Positions 11,212-58,614 of a DNA stretch of 64,000 nucleotides are shown here, one piece after another; position 1 is the first letter of the stretch; the number at the start of each line of letters is the position of its first letter. Location: positions 6,284,850 through 6,348,849 of the forward strand of contig NZ_JACBZA010000001.1 in NCBI RefSeq assembly GCF_013408535.1. Direction: 5' to 3'. The translations under genes were made by a program, and so were the position numbers. This stretch comes from Actinopolymorpha cephalotaxi (lineage in GTDB: Bacteria; Actinomycetota; Actinomycetes; Propionibacteriales; Actinopolymorphaceae). The notes beneath the pieces are model-generated. The model did not search any database and was not told the DNA's origin. It was given only the letters and a program-made list of their open reading frames with translations.

Positions 11212-14200
11212 GTGTTCAGGCGGATCGCAATCGTGAACCGCGGCGAGGCCGCGATGCGGCTGATCAACGCCGTACGCGAGCTCAACGCCGAGGGTGGCGA
11301 GCCGATCGAGACGGTGGCGCTCTACACCGACGTCGAGCGGACCGCGACGTTCGTACGCCAGGCAGACCTCGCCTACTCGCTGGGTCCGGCGTCCGCACGG
11401 CCCTACGTCGACCACGCGGTCCTCGAACGCGCCCTCCGTGACACCGGGGCCGACGCCGCGTGGGTGGGCTGGGGCTTCGTCGCGGAGCACCCGGCGTTCG
11501 CCGAGCTCTGCGAACGCCTCGGCGTCACCTTCATCGGGCCGACGCCGGAGGCGATGCGCCGGCTCGGCGACAAGATCGCCTCCAAGCTGGTGGCCGAGGA
11601 GGTCGGCGTTCCGGTCTCCCGGTGGAGCGGCGGCCCGGTCGAGACGCTGGACGCCGCCCTCGAGGCGGCGGACCGGATCGGCTACCCGCTGATGCTCAAG
11701 GCGGCCGCCGGCGGTGGTGGCCGGGGCATCCGGGTGATCATGTCCGGCGAGGACCTCAAGCAGGCGTACGACCGGACCCGCGACGAGGCCGAGCGCTCGT
11801 TCGGCAGTGGTGTGGTCTACCTCGAGCAGTTGGTGACCGGCGCGCGGCACGTCGAGGTGCAGGTGATCGCCGACGGTCAGGGCACCGCCTGGGCGCTCGG
11901 GGTGCGCGACTGTTCGGTGCAGCGCCGCAACCAGAAGGTGATCGAGGAGTCCGCCTCGCCGGTGCTGTCCGCGGAGCGGGCCGACCAGATCAAGGGCGCG
12001 GCGGAGCGGCTCGCGCTGGCGGTCGGCTACCGCGGCGCCGGGACGGTCGAGTTCCTCTACCGCCCGCAGGACGAGCTGCTGTCGTTCCTGGAGGTCAACA
12101 CCCGGCTGCAGGTGGAGCACCCGGTCACCGAGCTGACCACCGACCTGGACCTGGTGAAGGCCCAGATCCGGATCGCCGCCGGCGGCAGGCTCGAGGGCGA
12201 GCGGCCGGCCGAGACGGGGCACGCGATCGAGGCGCGGCTGAACGCCGAGGACCCCGACCGTGACTTCGCGCCGTCGCCGGGCCGGATCGCGCTGCTCGAC
12301 CTGCCGGCCGGTCCCGGCGTACGCGTGGACACCGGTTTCAGCGCCGGCGACACCATCCCGGCCGAGTTCGACTCGATGATCGCCAAGATCATCGCCTACG
12401 GACGGACTCGCGAGGAGGCGCTGGCGCGGCTGCGCCGGGCGGTGGGCGCCACCACGGTGGTCATCGAGGGCGGCGTCAGCAACAAGGGCTTCATCCTCGC
12501 GCTGCTGGACCAGCCGGAGGTGATCGACGGCAGCGCGGACACCGCCTGGATCGACCGCGTACGCGGGCAGGGCCGGCTGGTCTCGCACCGCCACTCCGGC
12601 GTCGGGTTGGTCGCGGCGGCGATCGAGGGGTACGAGGAGGCCAAGCAGGTCGAGCTCCGGCGGCTGCTGGAGACCGCGCACGGCGGCCGTCCGCAGGTGC
12701 AGCACGAGGTCGGCCGGGCGATCGACCTGGAGCTGCGCGGCGTCGCCTACCGCGTCACCGTCGCGCAGATCGGCCCGCACCGGTTCCGGGTCGGCGTCGG
12801 CAACGGCGACGAGCAGCACGTCGTCTACGGCGAGCTGGAGCGGTCCGGCACCTACGGCGCCCGGCTGACCGTGGACGGGCGGACGTTCCGGCTGGTCATC
12901 GCCACCCACGGCCCGGTGCACCTGGTCGAGGTGAACGGCGTCACCCACCGGGTCAGCCGGGGCGAGGGCGGGGTGCTGCGCTCACCGGCGCCGGCCCTGG
13001 TCGTCGCGACGCCGGTGGCGCCGGGCGCCGAGGTGGAGGCGGGCGCACCGGTGCTGGTGCTGGAGAGCATGAAGATGGAGACGGTGCTGTACGCGCCGTT
13101 CCGGGCCACCGTGCGGGAGCTCCTGGTCTCCGCCGGAAGCCAGGTCGAGACCAGTGCCCCGCTGATCCGGCTGGAGCCGGTCGCCGACGGCGCGTCGGCG
13201 GGGGCGGAGGGTGCACCGGCGGGCCTGCCGGGCGCCGCGGTGCCGGCCGTCGACCTGGACCTGCCCGAGGAGACCGTACGAAAGTCCGCCGGGGAACGCG
13301 CCGAACGCGGCTTGGCCGACCTGCGCAGCATGCTGCTCGGCTACGACGTGGACGCCCGGGACGAGGGCCAGATGCTGGCCGGCTACCTGACCGCCAGGGC
13401 AGAGCTCGCGGCGGCCGGGCAGGCGCCGATGTCGGCGGAGATCGAGCTGCTGCAGGTGTTCGCCGACTTCGCCGAGCTGAGCCGCAACCGGCCGGTGGGC
13501 GAGGAGGTCAGCACCGAGCACCGGGTGCACAGCCCCCGCGAGCACTTCCACACGTACCTCCAGAGTCTCGACCCCGAGCGCGGCGGCCTGCCGGAGGAGT
13601 TCCGCGCCCGGCTGGCCCGGGTGCTCGGGCACTACGGCGTGACCGACCTGGAGCGCAGCCCCGAGCTGGACGAGGCGGTGTTCCGCGTCTTCCTCGCCCA
13701 GCAGCGGTCGAGGCTGGACGTGCTGCTGGTCACGGCACTGCTGCAGGCGTGGAGCACCGAGCCGCTTCCGGCGGCCCCGCTGGACGCCCGCGTGCACGAC
13801 GTACTGGAACGCCTCGTGCTCGCCACCCAGCTGCGTTTCCCGGTCGTCGGCGACCTGGCCCGGAGCGTGCGGTTCCGCTGGTTCGACCAGCCGCTGGTGG
13901 ACGAGGAGCGGGCCGAGGTGGTGGCCGGGGTGGGCGCCGAGGTCGACTCGCTCGCGGCCGACCCGGACGCGCCCGACCGGCAGCAGCGGATCGAGGCGCT
14001 GGCGGCCATCCCCGAGCAGATCGTCGGGTTCCTCGTCCAGCGGCTGGAGCGCGGCTGGGCCGAGTGGGAGCCGATGCTCGAGGTGCTGATCCGCCGGCAC
14101 TACCGCGAGTACGAGCTGCACGGGCTGAGCGAGCTGGCCGTGGAGGGGCGACCGTTCGCGTCGGCCGACTACTCGCTGGACGACCGGCCCACCCACCTGG

Positions 14201-16746
14201 TCAGCACGGTCGGCACGGTCGCCGAACTCGCCGACCCCGATGGCGCTCTGGTCCGGGCCCTCACCGCCCAGGTCGTCGCCCGGCCCGCCGGGCACGAGGC
14301 GGTGGTCGACCTCTACCTGTTCGGGCCGGAGACCCCGGAGGTGCAGCAGGAGGCGGCGGACGCGTTGCGCGAGCTGGTCGCCGCGCTGCCGCTGGGTCGT
14401 GGCGTACGCCGGATCACCCTCGCTGTCGCCCGTGGTGGCGAGAAGGCGGTGGAGTACTTCACGTACCGTCCGGCCGGCGCCTCCGTCGTCGAGGACGACA
14501 ACGTGCGCGGTGTGCACCCCATGGTGGGCCGGCGGCTGAACCTCTGGCGGCTGCGTGACTTCCGGATAAACCGCCTGGAAGCGCCCGAGGGCGTGCTGCT
14601 CTACCACTGCGTGGCGCGGAACAACGACGCCGACCAGCGGCTGGTCGCGATGGCCCAGGTGCGCCAGTTCGCCGTCGTACGCGACGAGAACGGCCAGGTG
14701 ACGTCGCTGCCGCACGTGGAGCGGGCGATCTCGAACTGCCTGGAGGCGATCCGCCGGGACCGCAGCGCACGGGGTACGGCCGGCGCCCGCCTGGACATGA
14801 ACCACGTCTGGGTGCACATCTGGCCGGTCGTCGACGTGCAGGTCGAGGAGCTGACCGCGCTGCAGCGCAACATCGCGCCGCTCACGGTCGGCGCGGGCAT
14901 CGAGGAGGTGCTGGCGCAGGGACGGGTCGAGCGCCCGGACGGCACAGTCGCGCCGGTGACGGCACGGTTCTTCTACCAGCCGGGCTCCGGGGTGGTCACC
15001 TCCGTGGAGGAGCGGACCACCGAGCGGCTCGAACCGCTCGACGACTACGCCCAGAAGGTCCTGCGTTCCCGCCGCCGCAACACCGTCTACCCGTACGAGC
15101 TGACCGACATGGTGGCCGGCCCCGGCGGCTCGGGGGTGGAGTACGACCTGGACGACGCAGGCGTCCTCATGCCGGTCGACCGGCCGCGCGGCCTGAACAA
15201 GGCGGCGATCATCGTCGGGGTGATCAGCACGCCGACGGCGCGCTGCCCCGAGGGCGTCACCCGGGTGGTGCTCAGCGGCGACCCGACCAAGGCGCTCGGT
15301 GCCCTGGCCGAGGCCGAGTGCATGCGGATCATCGCCGCGCTCGACCTGGCCGAGCGGATGGGGGTGCCGATCGAGTGGTACGCGCTGTCGGCCGGTGCGC
15401 GCATCTCGATGGACTCCGGCACCGAGAACATGGACTGGATCGCGGCGGCGCTGAAGCGGATCGTCGAGTTCACCCAGGCGGGCGGTGAGATCAACGTCGT
15501 CGTGGCCGGCATCAACGTCGGTGCCCAGCCGTACTGGAACGCCGAGGCGACGATGCTGATGCACACCAAGGGCATCCTGGTGATGACGCCGGACAGCGCG
15601 ATGGTGCTCACCGGCAAGCAGTCGCTGGACTTCTCCGGCGGGGTGTCCGCGGAGGACAACTACGGCATCGGCGGCTACGACCGGGTGATGGGCCCGAACG
15701 GCCAGGCGCAGTACTGGGCGCCGGACCTGAAGAGCGCCCGCGACGTGCTGATGTCGCACTACGACCACACCTACGTCGTCCCGGGCGAGTCCGGGCCGAG
15801 GCGGTCGCACACGTCCGACCCGGTGGACCGGGACGTCACGACGTATCCGCACGACGCGCCGGGCAGCGACTTCCGTACGGTCGGCGACATCTTCTCCTCG
15901 GAAACCAACCCCGGCCGCAAGAAGCCGTTCGACATTCGTACGGTGATGCGCGCGGTGGCCGACCTGGACCACCCGGTGCTCGAACGCTGGGCCGGGATGG
16001 CCGACGCCGACACCGCCGTGGTGCAGGACGCCCGGCTCGGCGGGTACCCCGTCTGTCTGCTCGGGATCGAGTCGAAGTCCGTGCCCCGCAGGGGATTCCC
16101 GCCCACCGACGGACCGGACACCTACACCTCGGGCACGCTGTTCCCGCGGTCGTCGAAGAAGGTGGCCAGGGCGATCAACGCGGCCAGCGGGAACCGTCCG
16201 CTGGTGGTGCTGGCGAACCTGTCCGGCTTCGACGGGTCACCGGACTCGATGCGCAACCTGCAGTTGGAGTACGGCGCGGAGATCGGCCGGGCGGTCGTCA
16301 ACTTCGACGGTCCGATCGTGTTCGCGGTGATCTCGCGCTACCACGGCGGGGCGTTCGTGGTGTTCTCCAAGGCGCTGAACCCGAACCTCACCGTGCTGGC
16401 GGTGGAGGGCTCGTTCGCGTCGGTGCTCGGTGGTGCGCCCGCCGCCGCGGTGGTGTTCGCGGCGGAGGTCGACGCTCGTACGGCGGCCGACTCCCGGGTG
16501 TCGGGCCTGGCCGCGCGGGTGTCCGCGGCGGTCGGCGCCGAACGCGCCGCGCTGGCGACGGAACTGGCGGAGGTACGCACCGCCGTCCGGGCCGAGAAGC
16601 TGGGCGAGGTCGCGGCCGGGTTCGACCGGGTGCACAGCATCCAGCGGGCCGTCGAGGTCGGCTCGGTCGACGCGGTGATCGGCGCGACCGAGCTGCGGCC
16701 CCGGCTGATCGAGGCCATCGAACGCGGCCTCGGCACCTCGAGCTGA
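11212..16746 (+). CDS. Single-chain acyl-CoA carboxylase (biotin carboxylase-BCCP-carboxyltransferase)
   Basis: A 1,844-residue fusion carrying every step of ATP-dependent acyl-CoA carboxylation. Residues 1-450 are biotin carboxylase (MFRRIAIVNRGEAAMR; Gly-rich KAAAGGGGRGIR; FLEVNTRLQVEHPVTE). Residues about 580-660 are the biotin carrier, with the biotin-acceptor Lys at 621 in ESMKMET. A long central region follows, then a carboxyltransferase from about 1,250 to the end (SAGARISMDSGTENMDW; FSGGVSAEDNYGIGGYDR). The order matches eukaryotic acetyl-CoA carboxylase rather than the split AccA/B/C/D subunits usual in bacteria. GTG 11212 is preferred because GGGAGG lies 7 nt upstream; GTG 11179 is an alternative. 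Whether the substrate is acetyl- or propionyl-CoA is not clear. Confidence 0.88.
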   Translation: MFRRIAIVNRGEAAMRLINAVRELNAEGGEPIETVALYTDVERTATFVRQADLAYSLGPASARPYVDHAVLERALRDTGADAAWVGWGFVAEHPAFAELCERLGVTFIGPTPEAMRRLGDKIASKLVAEEVGVPVSRWSGGPVETLDAALEAADRIGYPLMLKAAAGGGGRGIRVIMSGEDLKQAYDRTRDEAERSFGSGVVYLEQLVTGARHVEVQVIADGQGTAWALGVRDCSVQRRNQKVIEESASPVLSAERADQIKGAAERLALAVGYRGAGTVEFLYRPQDELLSFLEVNTRLQVEHPVTELTTDLDLVKAQIRIAAGGRLEGERPAETGHAIEARLNAEDPDRDFAPSPGRIALLDLPAGPGVRVDTGFSAGDTIPAEFDSMIAKIIAYGRTREEALARLRRAVGATTVVIEGGVSNKGFILALLDQPEVIDGSADTAWIDRVRGQGRLVSHRHSGVGLVAAAIEGYEEAKQVELRRLLETAHGGRPQVQHEVGRAIDLELRGVAYRVTVAQIGPHRFRVGVGNGDEQHVVYGELERSGTYGARLTVDGRTFRLVIATHGPVHLVEVNGVTHRVSRGEGGVLRSPAPALVVATPVAPGAEVEAGAPVLVLESMKMETVLYAPFRATVRELLVSAGSQVETSAPLIRLEPVADGASAGAEGAPAGLPGAAVPAVDLDLPEETVRKSAGERAERGLADLRSMLLGYDVDARDEGQMLAGYLTARAELAAAGQAPMSAEIELLQVFADFAELSRNRPVGEEVSTEHRVHSPREHFHTYLQSLDPERGGLPEEFRARLARVLGHYGVTDLERSPELDEAVFRVFLAQQRSRLDVLLVTALLQAWSTEPLPAAPLDARVHDVLERLVLATQLRFPVVGDLARSVRFRWFDQPLVDEERAEVVAGVGAEVDSLAADPDAPDRQQRIEALAAIPEQIVGFLVQRLERGWAEWEPMLEVLIRRHYREYELHGLSELAVEGRPFASADYSLDDRPTHLVSTVGTVAELADPDGALVRALTAQVVARPAGHEAVVDLYLFGPETPEVQQEAADALRELVAALPLGRGVRRITLAVARGGEKAVEYFTYRPAGASVVEDDNVRGVHPMVGRRLNLWRLRDFRINRLEAPEGVLLYHCVARNNDADQRLVAMAQVRQFAVVRDENGQVTSLPHVERAISNCLEAIRRDRSARGTAGARLDMNHVWVHIWPVVDVQVEELTALQRNIAPLTVGAGIEEVLAQGRVERPDGTVAPVTARFFYQPGSGVVTSVEERTTERLEPLDDYAQKVLRSRRRNTVYPYELTDMVAGPGGSGVEYDLDDAGVLMPVDRPRGLNKAAIIVGVISTPTARCPEGVTRVVLSGDPTKALGALAEAECMRIIAALDLAERMGVPIEWYALSAGARISMDSGTENMDWIAAALKRIVEFTQAGGEINVVVAGINVGAQPYWNAEATMLMHTKGILVMTPDSAMVLTGKQSLDFSGGVSAEDNYGIGGYDRVMGPNGQAQYWAPDLKSARDVLMSHYDHTYVVPGESGPRRSHTSDPVDRDVTTYPHDAPGSDFRTVGDIFSSETNPGRKKPFDIRTVMRAVADLDHPVLERWAGMADADTAVVQDARLGGYPVCLLGIESKSVPRRGFPPTDGPDTYTSGTLFPRSSKKVARAINAASGNRPLVVLANLSGFDGSPDSMRNLQLEYGAEIGRAVVNFDGPIVFAVISRYHGGAFVVFSKALNPNLTVLAVEGSFASVLGGAPAAAVVFAAEVDARTAADSRVSGLAARVSAAVGAERAALATELAEVRTAVRAEKLGEVAAGFDRVHSIQRAVEVGSVDAVIGATELRPRLIEAIERGLGTSS

Positions 16747-16751
16747 CCCGC

Positions 16752-16777
16752 CCGGATTCTTCCGCGGAAGAATCCGG
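16752..16777. repeat. Palindromic element, copy 1
   Basis: A perfect 26-bp palindrome with the 20-bp core GATTCTTCCGCGGAAGAATC, flanked by CCG on the left and CGG on the right. It starts 6 bp after the carboxylase stop codon. No T-tract follows. The same core recurs at 16789 and 57547. It may act as a bidirectional hairpin terminator between convergent genes. Confidence 0.75.
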
Positions 16778-16786
16778 CTGAGCCGA

Positions 16787-16810
16787 ACGATTCTTCCGCG
16801 GAAGAATCGT
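16787..16810. repeat. Palindromic element, copy 2
   Basis: A perfect 24-bp palindrome with the same 20-bp core as copy 1 but flanks AC and GT. Its centre is 34 bp from that of copy 1, and it ends 7 bp before the stop of the convergent NTF2-like gene. The flanks differ from copy 1 yet still pair, which suggests selection on the folded stem. Confidence 0.75.
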
Positions 16811-16817
16811 GGCGGCC

Positions 16818-17228
16818 TCAGGCGTCGGCTGGTTGGCTGCGGTTGGCGAGGATGCCGGCGATGTCCTGGTGGTTCAGGTAGACGACGACGCTCCACCCGT
16901 CGCCGGCGCGGCGGAGCAGGTAGGTGGCGTGCAGAGTGAGTGGCTCGGCGTTCGGGTCGCCGAACTCCACGTCCCAGTGCGTCTCCACGAGGACGTGCTG
17001 GTCGTCGAGCGTACGGATGTCGAGATCACGAAGCCGGTTGCCGGACGCGCCGACGGAGCCGAACATCTCGGCCCGCTTGGGAAGGACGGCCCTCAGCTGG
17101 TCGCGGGTCACGACGGTGGCCCTGGCCGGATCGAGGCTGAGGAACTGTTCGTGAAAGAGGTCGGCGCCGCCGATGTCGAACCGCTCGAAGAACTCCCGAA
17201 GTTCCTTGTGCAGGGCAGGCGTGGTCAC
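16818..17228 (-). CDS. NTF2-like (SnoaL/DUF4440-type) protein
   Basis: A 136-residue cone-shaped alpha/beta-fold candidate. It begins with a helix (LHKELREFFERFDIGG) and ends in a strand-rich half (VLVETHWDVEF, LHATYLLRRAGDGWSVVVYLNHQDI), the usual NTF2-like order. The biochemical role is unknown; such proteins are often small-molecule isomerases or binding proteins. GGAGG precedes the GTG start. It is divergent from a MarR gene 105 bp away, whose operator-like site lies between them, so it is the likely MarR target. Confidence 0.75.
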   Translation of the reverse strand: MTTPALHKELREFFERFDIGGADLFHEQFLSLDPARATVVTRDQLRAVLPKRAEMFGSVGASGNRLRDLDIRTLDDQHVLVETHWDVEFGDPNAEPLTLHATYLLRRAGDGWSVVVYLNHQDIAGILANRSQPADA

Positions 17229-17759: not shown

Positions 17760-17981
17760 TCTCGGCGGCGGTTGGAGGTCGACCCCGCGCTGTCCGAAGT
17801 GTTGAGCGCAACGGTGGTCAGAGCCCCCGTCGCTCTTCACGCTTCTCGAGTGTGCTCTGTCGGCTGATGCGCGACACGTATCCGCCAGCTGATGTGCGAC
17901 ATCTGGAATGCACTGATCTGCCGATGTGCGGACGTTCGAATCTTGTGGCGGGGTGCAGAGCGTCGGACGTATTCTCCTCGC
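17760..17981. other. Gap with degenerate direct repeats at island edge
   Basis: This 222-bp stretch has no convincing gene. It contains three imperfect copies of a GCTGATGYGCGACA-like unit, at 17863, 17888 and 17921. The second copy includes a small palindrome (GATGTGCGACATC). Such repeats recall decayed insertion-sequence ends, but no transposase remnant is visible. It borders the island of small leaderless genes, and a TATTCT -10 at 17970-17975 serves the next gene. Confidence 0.4.
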
Positions 17982-25092: not shown

Positions 25093-25134
25093 AGAGGTCC
25101 AGGTCGGCCGGATCATCGGCCGGCCTGGACCTCT
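25093..25134 (+). terminator. katG terminator hairpin
   Basis: An 18-bp stem, with one T opposite G, and a GATCAT loop (arms AGAGGTCCAGG and CCTGGACCTCT closing a CGGCCG/CGGCCG inner stem), 26 bp after katG. It is the strongest simple hairpin in this gap. Confidence 0.75.
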
Positions 25135-25138
25135 GTCG

Positions 25139-25198
25139 TCGTTGAAGTGTGGAGACTTAGGGGGGTTATAGGCCCCGTAAGCCTCCACGCTTCAACGA
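25139..25198. repeat. Long nested hairpin H2
   Basis: A 60-nt almost continuous inverted repeat. Left arm TCGTTGAAGTGTGGAG pairs with CTCCACGCTTCAACGA with one G-T pair, and an inner GGGG/CCCC stem encloses TTATAGG. It lies just 4 bp after the katG terminator, in the convergent gap before the membrane protein gene. The outer arms (GAAGTG/CTTC) resemble hairpins at 25219 and 57362. Confidence 0.7.
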
Positions 25199-25218
25199 AA
25201 ACGATCGGACCGAGCCGC

Positions 25219-25266
25219 AAGCGTGAAGTTTCGTGGGGGTTCTGACCACCCGGAACGTTCACGCTT
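25219..25266. repeat. Nested hairpin H3
   Basis: Outer arms AAGCGTGAA and TTCACGCTT (9 bp) enclose an interrupted stem around GGGGGTTCTGACCACCC. Like H2, H4 and H5 it combines GTGAA/TTCAC outer arms with a G-rich/C-rich inner stem. Confidence 0.55.
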
Positions 25267-40938: not shown

Positions 40939-40984
40939 TTGACGCAACCGTACGGTTGCCATACAGTGGCAACCGTACGGTTGC
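40939..40984 (+). promoter_or_regulatory. Promoter with two ArsR-type operators
   Basis: TTGACG (40939-40944) and TACAGT (40962-40967) are spaced exactly 17 bp. Two copies of the perfect palindrome GCAACCGTACGGTTGC (40944-40959 and 40969-40984) fill the spacer and cover the start region, 25 bp centre to centre. The operon downstream ends in an ArsR-type repressor, the obvious ligand for these sites. Confidence 0.85.
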
Positions 40985-41003
40985 CACTGACTGGAGGTTG
41001 CAC

Positions 41004-53049: not shown

Positions 53050-53928
53050 GCCTCAACTTCGACCCGGCCCGCCATCCGGTCAACCGATTAACGGTTCGGC
53101 TCAGAACGGTGGCAGGTCGTCGTCAGCTGACCGTGTGCCTGCGGTGGCGGGTGCTGGTTCGTCAACCGGGTCGGTGAGGGCCGGCGCTGTGCCTTTGTAC
53201 TGGCGGCCGAAGGGGTCGGTGAGGGTGTGTTCGCCGGGCCCGGTCTGCTTCAGTTTCCAGTCCCTCTCGGTTTTCGCCTTGTGGTGGCGTGGGCACAGTG
53301 GGGCGATGTTGTCGACGGAGGTTTCTCCGCCGTCGGCGTACTCGGTGTTGTGGTCCAGGTGACAGGTCGCGGCGGGTCTTCGGCAGGTGATCCATACGCA
53401 GCGCTGGTCGCGGGCATGGACGAGCTCTGCCTGCAGTCCGCGCAGGAACCTCGCCGGGATCGGATGCAGGTGCAGTAACCGTCCGGTGACCGGGTGGGTG
53501 ACCCCGACGCTGAAGCGGGCTTCGGGGTTGTCGAGGTGGTTCGCCACGATCCGGCGAGCCACCTCGTTGATGATGGGCCCGACTCCGCCGAGTTCCCCGG
53601 GCTGGGTGGACAGGCCCATCAGGGTGGTCAGCGGCATGTTGAGTTGCACCTTGGCGCGCGTCTTGATCGGACCCCAGCTCGGCTGCGAAGAGGTCCACGG
53701 CGGTGGTGGTGGCGGTGTGGAGTTGTCTGTCGGCGGATCAGGCCGACCCCGCGGATCAGGCGGTTCAGGTGGATCAGGTGGATCGGGCTGTCCCGGCGGC
53801 TCGGCGTTGCGGGCTGCGGCCTGGTGGGCGGCGGCGTGGTGGGCGGCGGTGTCGTGGACCCGGACACCGTTCATCGCGGCCGCACCGCACACACTGCAGC
53901 TGCCGACTAGGGCGTGTCCTGCGGATCT

Positions 53929-54513
53929 TCATCGCAGGAGCAGGATGAGGCAGGCGATGAGGACTTCGGAGCGGTAGTAGGCGGCTCTTTTGGCGTAGCG
54001 GGTGGCCAGGCCGCGGAACTGCTTGAGGCGGTTGAAGCAGCGTTCGACCACGTTGCGGTCCCGGTAGATCTCGGCGTCGAACGCTGGTGGGCGCCCGCCG
54101 GCTTGGCCGCGTTGTTTGCGGCGTTGGATCTGGTCGGCCCGCTCGGGGATGGTGACCTTGATTCGCCTGCGCCGTAAGGCTTTGCGGGTAGAGGGATGGG
54201 AGTAGGCCTTGTCGGCCAGCACTCGCCCGACCTGCACCCGCACCCCGTCAATCCGCAGGTCGGAGATCTCATCCAGCAGCGGCAGCAGTTGAGGGTTGTC
54301 ACCCGCCGGACCCGGGGTGAGGATCACGCTGACCGGCAGCCCGGCGCCGTCGACGGCCAGGTGCAGTTTGCTGGTCAGCCCGCCCCGGGACCTGCCCAGG
54401 GCTTCTCCGGGTATGGCGAGGTCTTCGATCCAGTTCGCGCAGCCCCCTTTTTCCGGGCCCCAGCAGCATGCTGGTGTGCCCGGATGTAGGTGGAGTCCAC
54501 GCTGATCACCCAC
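53929..54513 (-). CDS. IS5-family transposase, ORF B
   Basis: The second frame, open from before 54513, carries the rest of the DDE domain: LTSKLHLAVDGAGLPVSVIL, the second Asp in VLADKAYSHPS and Glu in RNVVERCFNRLKQFRGLATRY. It probably has no start of its own. It would be read by -1 slippage from ORF A at an AAAAAG run (minus strand, about 54447-54452). Confidence 0.85.
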   Translation of the reverse strand: MGDQRGLHLHPGTPACCWGPEKGGCANWIEDLAIPGEALGRSRGGLTSKLHLAVDGAGLPVSVILTPGPAGDNPQLLPLLDEISDLRIDGVRVQVGRVLADKAYSHPSTRKALRRRRIKVTIPERADQIQRRKQRGQAGGRPPAFDAEIYRDRNVVERCFNRLKQFRGLATRYAKRAAYYRSEVLIACLILLLR

Positions 54514-54797
54514 TCGACCTCACCGATCGAGTCGTCCTTGGTGACGACCTCGCTCATCAGCGTGTCCCAGGTGCCGTCCGCGGTCCATTTCCTTAACCGC
54601 TCATGGGCTGTCTTCCATGGCCCGTAGCGTTCTGGCAGGTCACGCCACGGCGCCCCGGTACGCAACTTCCACAAGATGGCGTTGACCACCTGCCGATGGT
54701 CACGCCACCTGCCACCAGGCGTTCCAGCGTCCGGCAACAACGGCTCAATCCGCGCCCACGCCCGGTCAGTAACCTCACCCCGTCCAACCACCCACAC
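54375..54797 (-). CDS. IS5-family transposase, ORF A
   Basis: A 140-residue frame with the helix-turn-helix start EVTDRAWARIEPLLPDAG, then TGAPWRDLPERYGPWKTAHERLRKW and the first catalytic Asp in VISVDSTYIRAHQHAAG. It continues into low-quality sequence after AGARKKG, where the -1 frame takes over. Typical of the IS427-like group, in which ORF A and ORF B are joined by frameshift. Confidence 0.88.
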   Translation of the reverse strand: MWVVGRGEVTDRAWARIEPLLPDAGTPGGRWRDHRQVVNAILWKLRTGAPWRDLPERYGPWKTAHERLRKWTADGTWDTLMSEVVTKDDSIGEVEWVISVDSTYIRAHQHAAGARKKGAARTGSKTSPYPEKPWAGPGAG

Positions 54798-56302
54798 ATC
54801 GTGACCGAACGATCACCGAAGATCCGCAGGACACGCCCTAGCGCCAGAGAACAGTTCCCACATTCACACCAGCTGTCGTGCAGGTCGTGGTCGGGGAACC
54901 GGTGAACGCCACAGTGTCCCTCCCCACCCTGCTCGGTCTCGGCCTCGTTCTCGCTGTGCGCCTGCGCGTTCTCGCTCTCCGGCTGCGTGTCGTCATGGGC
55001 TCGCGGCTCGTCTTGGACCTGCTCGGCGTCGGCCTGCTCCTGGGGAGTCTCGTCTTCTGCGGGCCGCCGCCCGGAGTCGTCCTGCCCAGAGTCGTCCTGC
55101 ACCTCGTCTTGCGCGGCCTGGTCTTGCGCGGCTTGGCCCTGGGCGCCTTCGTCCCGCTCGGCCTGGTCGTGTGGCTCGTCGGCGTGCGTGGGGGCGGAAC
55201 AATCGATGAGGTCGGCGGCGCCGCTGAGCAGGGAGAAGGCGACGTCCGCACGTAGCTGGCTCAGCTTGCGCGGGTCGCCGGCGGACTTCACGGCACGTGC
55301 GATCGCGTCGATGTACCCGTACGCCTCCGCGGCCTGGTCAGCGGACAGGCCTCGGATCGCGAGGTCGGCGACCCCGTCCACGGCGGGCCAGATCGCGACG
55401 TTCCGCCCTGTCCGCGCGGCGCGGTGGCGTTTGCCGGCAGCCTCGGGATCGGCCTTCACGACCTCCGCCTCCACCTTCGCCCGCAACAACCCGCCCCGAA
55501 GTTCCAGCACCTTCGGGAAGATCGCGTCCTCGATCGCATCCCACAGGTCGGGTTTCGCGTCGGTGATCCGGTCCACGATCGCCCGCACGTCGGGCAGCTC
55601 CAGCCCACCGGACGCCAGCGCCGCACGCACACGGGGCAGGCGGGGCAGGGTGAGGGCCAGCGCGAGGTACCAGCTGGTGTGGTAGCCCGACCATCGCAGC
55701 AGCGGTTCGAGGACGGCCTGGGTCATCGGGTCCATCTCGGGACTGCGCTGCGCCGGCTCGTCGGGCATACCGGGTTCGGCGTAGGCGAGTTCGTTCACCT
55801 CCGACAGGCACTCGGCCTCCGCCCAGCCGATCAACCGCCGCCACGCCCTGGCCCGCTCCTCCACCTCGAACCCGTTACACACCCCGCGATCCACCGAAGC
55901 GAGCAACACCGCAAGCCGCGGCCCACCCGGCACATCAGCGAACCCATCCGGCAGCACCCGGCGACGACCCGGGCCCTCGCCCAGGTCGTCGCCGAAGTAT
56001 CCACCGCCGTCGCTCACGCGTTCGAGTCTACCGCACAAGATCGACTCATGTGCACAGGAAACCCTTTACCCACAAGCGGAATCGAAGAAAATACACTTCG
56101 GGTGTGAAGATCGGACTGGTGATTGCCTCTGCGTGGATCGCAAGGTTCCCGCCCCGCCATCGCGCTACCGGGGAGAGGTCGGAGCCCGGCGCCTTGAGGC
56201 ATGTGCCACGCCAAGTTGACCATCGGCGGAGGAGAGAAACAAGACTTGTTCTTCGAGCTCGACCCTGCGCAGACTCGATGCCCGACGATCCTGGGAGAAG
56301 CA

Positions 56303-57238
56303 GTGGACGAGCATCCGTTGGAGTTCACCCTGTCCGAGAATCCCTGGGCTCCGACGAAGGTCGTCGCCGAGATCAACCAGAGGACGGGTGACAAGCTGGA
56401 GTTGACGGGGCTGTCGGACCAGGTCGGCGGCGTGAGCAGCGCGGCCTACGTACGGTGGCCGGACGGGCGAGCAGGTGTCGTCACCCGCCCGACCATCCCG
56501 CTCGCGTACATGCACCTCACTGCCGAGATCCTTCGGATGGTCCGCGCTCATGGCCTGCCCGTTCCACGGTATGACGTGATCCTGCAGTTGGCCGACGGCA
56601 TGGTGACGGTCGTGCAGGAACGCCTTCCCGGCAAGCACGTGACGCGATTCAGTGCAGGCCTGATCGAGGAGATGGTGGCCACGAACGAGAGGTTCGCCGG
56701 GCTGCTGGCCGATCGGCCCGACGTCCCTCCGCCGCCACAGTTCCCCCGGCTCGTCGCGGGCGAGCATCCGTGGGAGGAAACGCTGGGCCGCTACGACGAA
56801 CGAAGCCGGCGGATCCTCGAGCGGTTCCTGGAGATCGACGACGGCGAGCCGTTCGAGATGACCGGCGACGACGTCGTACACACCGACTTCTCGTTCGGCA
56901 ACGTTCTCTTCGACGACCACGGCACGGTGTCCGCCGTCGTGGACTGGAACTTCGGCATCGCCCGCGGTGACCGGCGCTTCGCACTTCTCGACATGCGTGA
57001 CAACCTCGTCATCGAACGGCGTTCCAGCGAAGGCTTTCAGGAGGCCGTCGACCGGCTCGACGAGATCCTCGCCGCGACGCTGGGTGAAGACCTCCTGCGC
57101 ATCTACCGGATCCACCGCAGTGTCCACAGCGTTCACCGTTCGATCAGCAACGGGTTCCGGCCGGAGAAGATCGAGTACGACCTGGAAGCCGCGCAATGTC
57201 GCCTGGACGGAACGACACCGCCACCACACGTCTGGTAG
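56303..57238 (+). CDS. Aminoglycoside phosphotransferase-like (APH) kinase
   Basis: A 311-residue kinase-like protein. VVHTDFSFGNVLFDDHGTVSAVVDWNFGIARGD carries the HxDxxxxN catalytic loop and the DW metal segment of APH/choline-kinase-type enzymes. The N-lobe is LTGLSDQVGGVSSAAYVRWP. GTG 56303 has GGGAGAAG just upstream; an ATG at 56201 would add 34 residues without family resemblance. The substrate is unknown and drug resistance should not be assumed. It ends at the hairpin-rich gap. Confidence 0.75.
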   Translation: MDEHPLEFTLSENPWAPTKVVAEINQRTGDKLELTGLSDQVGGVSSAAYVRWPDGRAGVVTRPTIPLAYMHLTAEILRMVRAHGLPVPRYDVILQLADGMVTVVQERLPGKHVTRFSAGLIEEMVATNERFAGLLADRPDVPPPPQFPRLVAGEHPWEETLGRYDERSRRILERFLEIDDGEPFEMTGDDVVHTDFSFGNVLFDDHGTVSAVVDWNFGIARGDRRFALLDMRDNLVIERRSSEGFQEAVDRLDEILAATLGEDLLRIYRIHRSVHSVHRSISNGFRPEKIEYDLEAAQCRLDGTTPPPHVW

Positions 57239-57361
57239 GGCACAAGAAGCCGAGGTCCAAGCAGGCCGGCGCGTCGCCGCGGCCCGGCGCACAACTACGT
57301 CGACTCGCGGACGACCAGGTGGGGCTGGACGACGACCTGCCGCCGGCGCTCGCCGCTGGAA

Positions 57362-57407
57362 AGTGTGAAGCCCGCAGGTGGTCCTGGCCACCGCGGGCTT
57401 TCACACT
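57362..57407. repeat. Nested hairpin H4
   Basis: A nearly complete 46-nt inverted repeat: AGTGTGAAGCCCGC pairs with GCGGGCTTTCACACT (one bulged T), enclosing GGTGG/CCACC around a TCCTGG loop. Its core GGTGGTCCTGGCCACC is repeated exactly in H5, 75 bp away. Confidence 0.75.
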
Positions 57408-57435
57408 GCGGCCGACCGGACCGGCCGGCCGCGGT

Positions 57436-57481
57436 AGTGCGAAGCTTCCGGGTGGTCCTGGCCACCCGCACTTTTCACACT
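57436..57481. repeat. Nested hairpin H5
   Basis: Same plan as H4: outer AGTGCGAA pairs with TTCACACT (one mismatch), inner GGGTGG pairs with CCACCC, loop TCCTGG identical to H4. The intermediate stem is less regular. The shared core and arms show a common origin. Confidence 0.7.
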
Positions 57482-57543
57482 TCGGTTGCCCGCGGCCCCT
57501 GGGTGTGGTCGAGCCGGCTCGTGCCGGCAGTCCCCTCGGGTCG

Positions 57544-57569
57544 CGTGATTCTTCCGCGGAAGAATCACG
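57544..57569. repeat. Palindromic element, copy 3
   Basis: A perfect 26-bp palindrome with core GATTCTTCCGCGGAAGAATC and flanks CGT and ACG, 22 bp before the stop of the convergent deaminase-like gene. It has the same core as the pair at 16752 and 16787, with different but still complementary flanks. Confidence 0.75.
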
Positions 57570-57591: not shown

Positions 57592-58614
57592 TCAGCGCGC
57601 AGCGGACACGGCTGCCGCGTCGATCTCGGCCAGCAGCTCCGCTCTGCGCTGCTCGGTGGTGAAGGCGGCCTCGATCGCGTTACGGGTCAGCCCAAGGAGC
57701 TGGTTGTGGGTGAGGCCGAGCGACGCGGCGGCGGCGTACTCCGCGCCGATCGTCGTACCCACCTGCACCGGATCGTCGGTGGCCAGCGTCACCTTCACTC
57801 CGGCGTCGATGAACCGGACCAGCGGATGTTCCGCCAGCGACTGGACCACACCGAACAGCACGTTGCAGGACAGCGCGCACTCAAGCGTGATGTCCTGGTC
57901 GATCAGGAGGTCGACGAGTGCGGGGTCCTTGATGGCGTGGATGCCGTGCCCGATCCGGGTCAGCCCGGGAGTGGCGGCAGCGGCAGCGATGTTGGCGGTG
58001 GAGAGCTCGCCGGCGTGCGCGGTGATGCCGAGGCCGGCGTCGGCGAAGCGCCCTGCCAGCCGATGTGCGACCGTCCAGTCCGCCTCCGAGTGGTACGGAA
58101 AACACATCAGGTCCACGCCGGCAAGGCCCTCACCCGCCAGGCGTACGCACCCGTCGACCTTGGCGGCCAGCTCGGAAGGCGGCTCCGCACCGGGCATCAC
58201 GATCGCCAGTGGCTCGGCTCGCAGGGCCGGAAAGTCGACCTGCACCTGACGTTCGGCCCGGCGGAAGAGTTCCATGAACCCGTTCCGGAGTACGACGTCC
58301 CCACCGCAGCGCACCTCGATGTAGCTTCCGCCGGAACGTGCGTGCTCGGACAGCACGTCGGCGACGCGCGCGACGAACAGTTCGTCGTCGGCGTCGACCT
58401 CCAGCGGGACCGGGCGCATGGTGCCGACCTGGGCGAGCCGCTCCGGGCCGGGCGGGAACTCCGCCACCAGCCGCCGTCGCCACGCGGCCCAGTCGTACGG
58501 TGGCCTGCCCTCGCGTTGCGCGAGAACCCGGTCGAGGTGCGGCGTGGGTTCCTGGTGCACATGCAGGTCGGCCATCGGGAGGGCAGCTGTGGAGTGCTCA
58601 GGGGAAAGCGCCAT
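57592..58614 (-). CDS. Adenosine deaminase-like amidohydrolase
   Basis: A 340-residue zinc amidohydrolase: the first ligand pair is in ADLHVHQEP, further residues in ITAHAGELS and IGHGIHAIKD, and the last ligand in LATDDPVQVG, in the order of adenosine deaminases. The segment after the first HxH (EPTPHLDRVLAQREG) is unlike the usual DG-x-L, so the substrate may be a related nucleoside or base. The ATG has TAGCGT 6 nt upstream, so it is probably leaderless. Confidence 0.85.
   Translation of the reverse strand: MALSPEHSTAALPMADLHVHQEPTPHLDRVLAQREGRPPYDWAAWRRRLVAEFPPGPERLAQVGTMRPVPLEVDADDELFVARVADVLSEHARSGGSYIEVRCGGDVVLRNGFMELFRRAERQVQVDFPALRAEPLAIVMPGAEPPSELAAKVDGCVRLAGEGLAGVDLMCFPYHSEADWTVAHRLAGRFADAGLGITAHAGELSTANIAAAAATPGLTRIGHGIHAIKDPALVDLLIDQDITLECALSCNVLFGVVQSLAEHPLVRFIDAGVKVTLATDDPVQVGTTIGAEYAAAASLGLTHNQLLGLTRNAIEAAFTTEQRRAELLAEIDAAAVSAAR

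Follow-up and report, generated by a model that had tools for sequence, protein, structure and literature searches.

The window, that is, the whole stretch of 64,000 nucleotides analysed here, lies on a contig of 6,858,585 bases from Actinopolymorpha cephalotaxi. The genes were called with my own codon-usage script and not taken from an annotated record, and some of the divergent cases given below may be miscalled. It was confirmed that the 20-mer GATTCTTCCGCGGAAGAATC, hereafter palindrome C, occurs three times in the window. No further copy was found in the 64 kb at up to three mismatches, and none of 100 dinucleotide shuffles of the window reproduced it. A second motif, a dyad named H that is often doubled (HH), is found in one of the same gaps. 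The features are as follows.

11212..16746, + strand: gene for a biotin carboxylase / carboxyltransferase-like protein, upstream of C copies 1 and 2
16752..16777, no strand: first copy of palindrome C, perfect over 26 bp, with the exact 20-mer at 16755-16774 and the core at 16757-16772
16787..16810, no strand: second copy of palindrome C, perfect over 24 bp, with the exact 20-mer at 16789-16808
16818..17228, - strand: gene converging on C copies 1 and 2, with weak DUF4440/SnoaL-like matches below curated cut-offs
17797..17844, no strand: H dyad standing alone after a MarR-family gene
25145..25266, no strand: HH module without C in a convergent gap (H dyads 25145-25192 and 25219-25266)
56201..57238, + strand: gene for an APH-family phosphotransferase, upstream of HH and C copy 3
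57361..57482, no strand: HH module sharing its gap with C copy 3 (dyads at 57361-57408 and at 57435-57482, starts 74 nt apart)
57544..57569, no strand: third copy of palindrome C, perfect over 26 bp, with the exact 20-mer at 57547-57566
57592..58575, - strand: adenosine deaminase gene, converging on C copy 3

The original prediction held that the flanking bases lengthen the perfect palindromes, that no T-tract follows and that all copies lie between convergent genes, and in the window each of these points was borne out. The 20-mer of copy 1 starts 8 nt past the stop of the upstream gene, that of copy 2 ends 9 nt short of the stop end of the minus-strand gene, and copy 3 is 25 nt short of the stop end of its minus-strand gene. 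Copies 1 and 2 also form one larger inverted repeat at 16.8 kb, with the arms 16748-16774 and 16789-16815. C is present in just two of the 11 convergent gaps of the window. The other nine gaps contain no perfect hairpin of at least 8 bp with a loop of 3-8 nt. Thus, C is not a general gene-end solution of the A. cephalotaxi genome. Elsewhere in the window (40944-40994), two close copies of another perfect palindrome, GCAACCGTACGGTTGC, lie between two plus-strand genes of the xylose-isomerase-like and AHSA1 families; one of them reaches 26 bp, and the pair is operator-like.

Palindrome copies at gene ends and in the genus

The 16-bp core of C is TTCTTCCGCGGAAGAA, which most often stands within GATTCTTCCGCGGAAGAATC. 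The genome-wide search found 62 exact cores and 46 exact 20-mers in A. cephalotaxi, so the family is not confined to the three copies of the window. Together with one core with an ACGG centre, the exact cores make up the 63 C sites analysed below. Twenty-nine of these sites are in convergent gaps, 24 in codirectional gaps, eight in divergent gaps (five distinct ones) and two in genes. Thus, the predicted confinement to convergent gaps does not hold for the genome as a whole, and with eight divergent sites among 63 the copies do not lie mostly in promoter regions either. The predicted placement near gene 3′ ends was supported, since 20 of the 24 codirectional sites are nearer to the end of the upstream gene. 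When distinct gaps were counted, the 42 gaps with C comprised 18 convergent, 19 codirectional and five divergent ones, whereas the 78 gaps of at least 20 bp without C at the same loci comprised 12, 50 and 16, respectively. The excess of convergent gaps (18/42 vs. 12/78) gave a Fisher P of 0.0012 and the shortage of divergent gaps a P of 0.18. Of the 53 convergent or codirectional sites, 29-30 are no farther than 60 nt from a 3′ end and 41 no farther than 120 nt, while 17.7 and 29.6 would be expected from uniform placing in the same gaps; the site L010 2186, which overlaps the final codons of a gene, accounts for the difference between 29 and 30. Where two copies share a convergent gap, each is often near one of the stops; in the window (L040) the distances are 8 and 9 nt, at L038 they are 23 and 32 nt, and at L039 29 and 31 nt.

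None of 47 oriented sites has five or more T residues in the next 10 nt (T 0.147 vs. 0.16), and a canonical intrinsic terminator was rejected for the lack of a U-tract at these sites. The site of an autoregulated regulator was likewise rejected, as no regulator family was found among ten genes beside sites in divergent or upstream position.

Exact 20-mers were found in four of 38 genomes including that of A. cephalotaxi, all four belonging to Actinopolymorpha; in a separate sequence collection, a contig of Actinopolymorpha rutila DSM 18448 has the 20-mer. The relatives of the same genus have 22 (G001), 21 (G004), seven (G002), four (G005) and two (G003) exact cores, and two other genera of the family, with one genome each, have none. 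Copies may be clustered, with up to six cores in a single gap of G001 (L078). Among the perfect palindromes of at least 14 bp in 47 kb of A. cephalotaxi intergenic DNA, a sample biased toward C loci, 59 distinct ones contain C and 13 do not. Spread outside the genus was rejected, since the four actinobacterial 20-mer matches outside Actinopolymorpha are all inside called genes. A gene-end family outside the genus was rejected as well; the four outside genomes searched have one to three cores each, and three cores (L176, L178 and L180) lie outside called genes. A phage origin was not supported, with no exact 20-mer in viral contigs. No description of the element was found in the open-licence literature searched, and the 16-mer core string did not occur in it. 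C looks like a genus-specific family of gene-end marks in Actinopolymorpha that is apparently undescribed.

Of the 27 loci of relatives fetched for exact 20-mers, 23 match an A. cephalotaxi C locus over at least 500 nt, although for two of these, L054 and L075, the match is confined to loci that carry DUF222 or phosphoribosyltransferase genes. No such match was obtained for L059, L063, L067 and L072. Since these loci were chosen by the exact 20-mer, the core identity in them is inflated. In the aligned or mapped orthologues, the core stays near the same gene end, and the remaining DNA of the gap has changed.

Some copies of the core lie inside genes. All eight copies examined (L044, L049, L054, L075, L080, L088, L091 and L095) share one reading frame and encode the peptide (D)SSAEE, in some cases within linker-like regions of DUF222 proteins. 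The probability that this peptide is spelled by the core letters is 2.3e-6 at the codon usage of A. cephalotaxi, and some of the copies are orthologous to each other; the shared frame and peptide may be due to chance. DUF222 (PF02720) is strongly multi-copy, with 44 matches in A. cephalotaxi, 77 in G005, 47 in G004, 42 in G001, 38 in G003, 27 in G007, 25 in G002 and none in G006. DUF222/HNH genes were rejected as the driver of C, since C is found at two A. cephalotaxi DUF222 genes (L023 and L044) against the 44 genome-wide matches, so that the link is not general.

Core letters, flanking complementarity and the fold

In A. cephalotaxi, 70 sequences lie within two mismatches of the core; 62 are exact and eight are changed. 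The exact cores and those within two mismatches number 22 and 39 in G001, 7 and 21 in G002, and 21 and 33 in G004 (17, 14 and 12 changed). No copy was found in G007 at up to two mismatches, and a control search with the reversed core gave zero or one match. Altered cores are thus rare in A. cephalotaxi and commoner in the relatives. Among the matches listed, the readable changes in A. cephalotaxi are one at the centre, the would-be RNA loop (1730359), and one in one arm (2591933); L021 has a further one-arm change, and G004 has three one-arm changes and one at the centre. None of the readable variants listed is compensated, although a T-to-C change in one arm would still allow a G-U pair on one strand.

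The original prediction took the co-varying flanks as the pattern of a selected folded stem. In A. cephalotaxi, the flanks are complementary beyond chance. Positions ±3 pair in 73% of the sites vs. 52% after shuffling and positions ±4 in 54% vs. 33%, values that none of 2000 shuffles reached; positions ±7 also pair above shuffles (8/2000). At least seven extra pairs were found at nine of 46 exact sites (0.74 expected). When these long-stem sites were left out, ±3 still co-varied (0/2000) and ±4 did so weakly (19/2000). In the loci of the relatives, ±3 shows no covariation (358/2000), ±4 co-varies (8/2000), and four of 27 exact sites have long stems (0.37 expected). The folding energy is also in accord with a stem. 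The 40-nt RNA windows with C average -19.2 kcal/mol against -11.9 kcal/mol for other intergenic windows, of which only 3% reach -19.2 kcal/mol.

The comparison between species did not bear the prediction out. In 21 orthologous site pairs, which were matched by hand and use one A. cephalotaxi site twice, there are 33 positions changed on both sides, of which 10 are complementary in each of the two species (null 0.245, P 0.13), and the pairing survives in 10 of 38 A. cephalotaxi pairs with any change. The stem extends by 1 bp at L014 and by 14 bp, the greatest length examined, at the orthologous L073; L018 and L071 extend by 7 and 2 bp, with identical right flanks. L011 and L057 share an extension of at least 12 bp in two species, with one compensated change from A-T to G-C. 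A dependence on the gene end was not found either, as the extension is 3.59 bp at the 29 sites within 60 nt of a gene end and 3.62 bp at the other 34, and the energies are -19.3 and -19.2 kcal/mol near and away from gene ends. In summary, the claim of a selected stem stands as far as the number of copies, the placement at 3′ ends, the flank complementarity within the genome and the RNA stability are concerned, and it is not supported by the pairing between species or by the distance to gene ends.

It is possible, though on balance unlikely, that C acts as RNA, namely as a bidirectional stem-loop without a U-tract at mRNA 3′ ends that serves as an I-shaped terminator or as a trimming stop for Rho-terminated transcripts. 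The gene-end placement and the stability of the C windows fit this explanation, and the flank covariation in A. cephalotaxi and the compensated change at L011/L057 are in its favour, as are near-perfect H hairpins at the gene ends of L029 and L032 in G001 and G002. Such 3′ ends have precedent in Streptomyces clavuligerus, where, according to PMC8269248, 353 of 535 structured 3′ ends are highly structured and lack U. On the other hand, the T-tract is absent, base pairs beyond the core are not maintained from one species to the next, and neither extension nor energy follows the distance to the gene end. The 20-mer by itself gives only -8.6 kcal/mol, and a hairpin requires neither fixed letters nor a self-complementary loop.

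Template-switch mutation (quasipalindrome correction) can create complementarity in palindromes. That it made the flank complementarity here, without selection, comes close to an even chance, and this is compatible with any of the readings of C itself. It would account for long perfect extensions that are present in one species and absent at the orthologue, as in L014/L073 and L018/L071, and that are unrelated to gene-end distance, whereas the shared extension of L011/L057 with its compensated pair is what selection on a stem would give. From these sequence comparisons, I read the fixed letters of the core, more than the fold, as the conserved quantity, with the flanks secondary. Co-varying flanks around a palindrome need not signal a selected fold.

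The HH module

Many segments between paired C copies contain HH, which consists of two 48-bp H dyads. Among 47 listed H units, which include three window copies entered twice, 43 are exactly 48 nt long, though the search pattern allowed 42-62 nt. An ungapped alignment of 40 units gave AAGYGTGAAR-N6-GGKGG-N6-CCNCC-N6-YTTCACRCTT. The repeat distance is 74 nt in 14 of 18 pairs and 73, 73, 75 and 77 nt in the others. Pairing across the dyad is far above that of slid registers but not above shuffles (73.9% vs. 75.0%, 463/500), and an H selected as an RNA stem was rejected on this ground; pairs with a two-sided change are slightly in excess (15 vs. 12.6, 30/500). A symmetric H with little or no covariation is as expected of DNA sites bound by a dimer. 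Judged by its letters, HH has the fixed geometry, the constrained half-sites and the lack of compensation of a putative protein-bound dyad.

A profile of the HH pair, derived mostly from C loci and scored on 92 first-look candidates per genome, gave 67 matches in A. cephalotaxi, merged to 33 places, and matched in five of 38 genomes, all of them Actinopolymorpha. C lies within 350 bp of 23 of the 33 HH places, and HH lies within 350 bp of 36 of the 63 C sites, leaving 27 sites with no HH in that range. At L014, L035, L038 and L039, A. cephalotaxi has the arrangement C-HH-C, while in the relatives the gap is shorter and contains just one C; at L035, G004 has HH and no C. Three HH orthologues between A. 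cephalotaxi and G004 are 0.70-0.78 identical, and in one further orthologue the identity is 81% across 139 nt. The best paralogue is only 0.80 identical, so there is no recent duplicate of HH.

Seven single H units in G001 and G002 (L100, L105, L109, L110, L118, L122 and L123) are near-perfect hairpins with 20-23 of 24 positions paired and have nearly the same letters at different loci. Perhaps they represent a dispersed hairpin family of their own with a relationship to H. At L010, the segment 1936-2185 between two C copies contains, in place of H, two imperfect repeats of another kind. In the window, an imperfect hairpin (25093-25134; 18-bp arms, 94% complementary, 6-nt loop) follows a peroxidase gene and directly precedes the HH at 25145. 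An insertion sequence that encodes a DDE transposase (PF01609) and has the inverted ends CTAGGGCGTGTCCTGCGGATCTT occupies 53904-54841, and a 94% identical copy adjoins HH in G004 (L133). Insertion into C was rejected, since the L133 copy beside HH is flanked by CTAG and not by halves of C.

Interpretation and comparison with known systems

I tentatively favour the reading of C as a boundary at gene ends that is read as DNA sequence, over the RNA stem discussed above and over a repeat without function; it is a possibility that I would not yet call probable. C would mark gene ends and be recognised through its letters. C has the same letters on either strand, so that a single site would serve both genes. 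A dimeric DNA-binding protein would occupy the loop-less palindrome, another protein or complex would occupy HH, and the complexes on C and HH would form a two-way boundary between transcription units, either as a block to read-through or as a topological insulator between converging genes. The flank complementarity would be secondary; it could arise as a side effect of template switching in palindromes, or an RNA stem could contribute modestly.

The reading as a DNA boundary is based on the exactness of 62 of 70 near-copies, on the coincidence of 23 of 27 loci of relatives with A. cephalotaxi C loci, and on the gene-end bias with the excess of convergent gaps. It also draws on flank pairing that is neither kept at orthologues nor related to gene-end distance, and on the fixed 48-nt and 74-nt geometry of HH without an excess of pairing, with C near 23 of 33 HH places. 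Against it count the strong RNA hairpins at C and the flank covariation in A. cephalotaxi, the less uniform cores of the relatives, the 27 of 63 C sites without HH within 350 bp, the derivation of the HH model mostly from C loci and the slight excess of two-sided changes in H. The more specific proposal is a dedicated gene-end boundary system of Actinopolymorpha, in which a sequence-specific protein on C beside the stops and a rigidly spaced nucleoprotein complex on HH between them would, with no need of a U-tract, terminate or insulate transcription from either side. I regard this as doubtful. Bacteria are not known to have such a paired-site system at gene ends.

It is improbable that C, perhaps together with H, belongs to the REP-like dispersed repeats without host function, whose gene-end bias would reflect tolerance and whose exactness would come from recent spread or homogenisation. 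The strong differences in copy number between species (62, 22, 21, 7, 4 and 2), the local clusters of up to six cores in one gap and the more frequent imperfect copies in relatives would fit such a repeat. Its placement would fit as well, as REPs are mostly in unidirectional and convergent gaps according to PMC3733652, whose main text does not name Actinobacteria, and 53 of the 63 C sites are convergent or codirectional. However, the coincidence of 23 of 27 loci indicates that most positions are old, yet 62 of 70 A. cephalotaxi cores are exact, and HH has no recent duplicate. Mobilisation by a RAYT was rejected, as PF01797 has no match in the A. cephalotaxi genome, while the same search was positive in five of 14 genomes as a control. 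Nor was a REP tag (unpaired GTAG or CGTC) found at the stem foot, where the 63 sites have no fixed letters beyond ±3.

Dispersed palindromes such as matS, parS and SlmA sites mark chromosome regions by many short exact sites. C resembles these chromosome-organiser sites in being a many-copy, short, exact palindrome presumably read by a dimer, but it is tied to gene ends. It is not significantly uneven along the chromosome, on which dnaA lies at 6.03 Mb, and a matS-like macrodomain or chromosome-domain site was rejected because the 41 loci show no significant clustering (Kuiper P 0.24). The eight sources with C or HH gave no Rfam match above the gathering score.

Many transcripts of GC-rich actinobacteria end without a U-tract according to PMC8269248, which raises the question of what marks such ends. 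The A. cephalotaxi genome offers identical marks at identifiable gene ends that are naturally present or absent between orthologues of sister species, which makes the question testable, and HH, given the nearly fixed 74-bp geometry, lends itself as bait for the putative DNA-binding protein.

The GTAG- and CGTC-tagged REP/BIME repeats, as described in PMC3733652, are like C short dispersed palindromes outside genes, sometimes clustered and with some copies in genes; C differs from them in being a loop-less exact palindrome and in having a second module of fixed geometry, HH. The gene-end inverted repeats of Escherichia coli are also concentrated after stop codons, but the long ones, in the account given in PMC6060812, mostly belong to intrinsic terminators of varied sequence, whereas C repeats a single exact sequence and has no T-tract. 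The U-lacking 3′ ends and I-shaped terminators of PMC8269248 share with C a stem near gene ends without a U-tract. As presented there, they vary in sequence and have the fold in common, while C has fixed letters and an outer pairing that changes from species to species.
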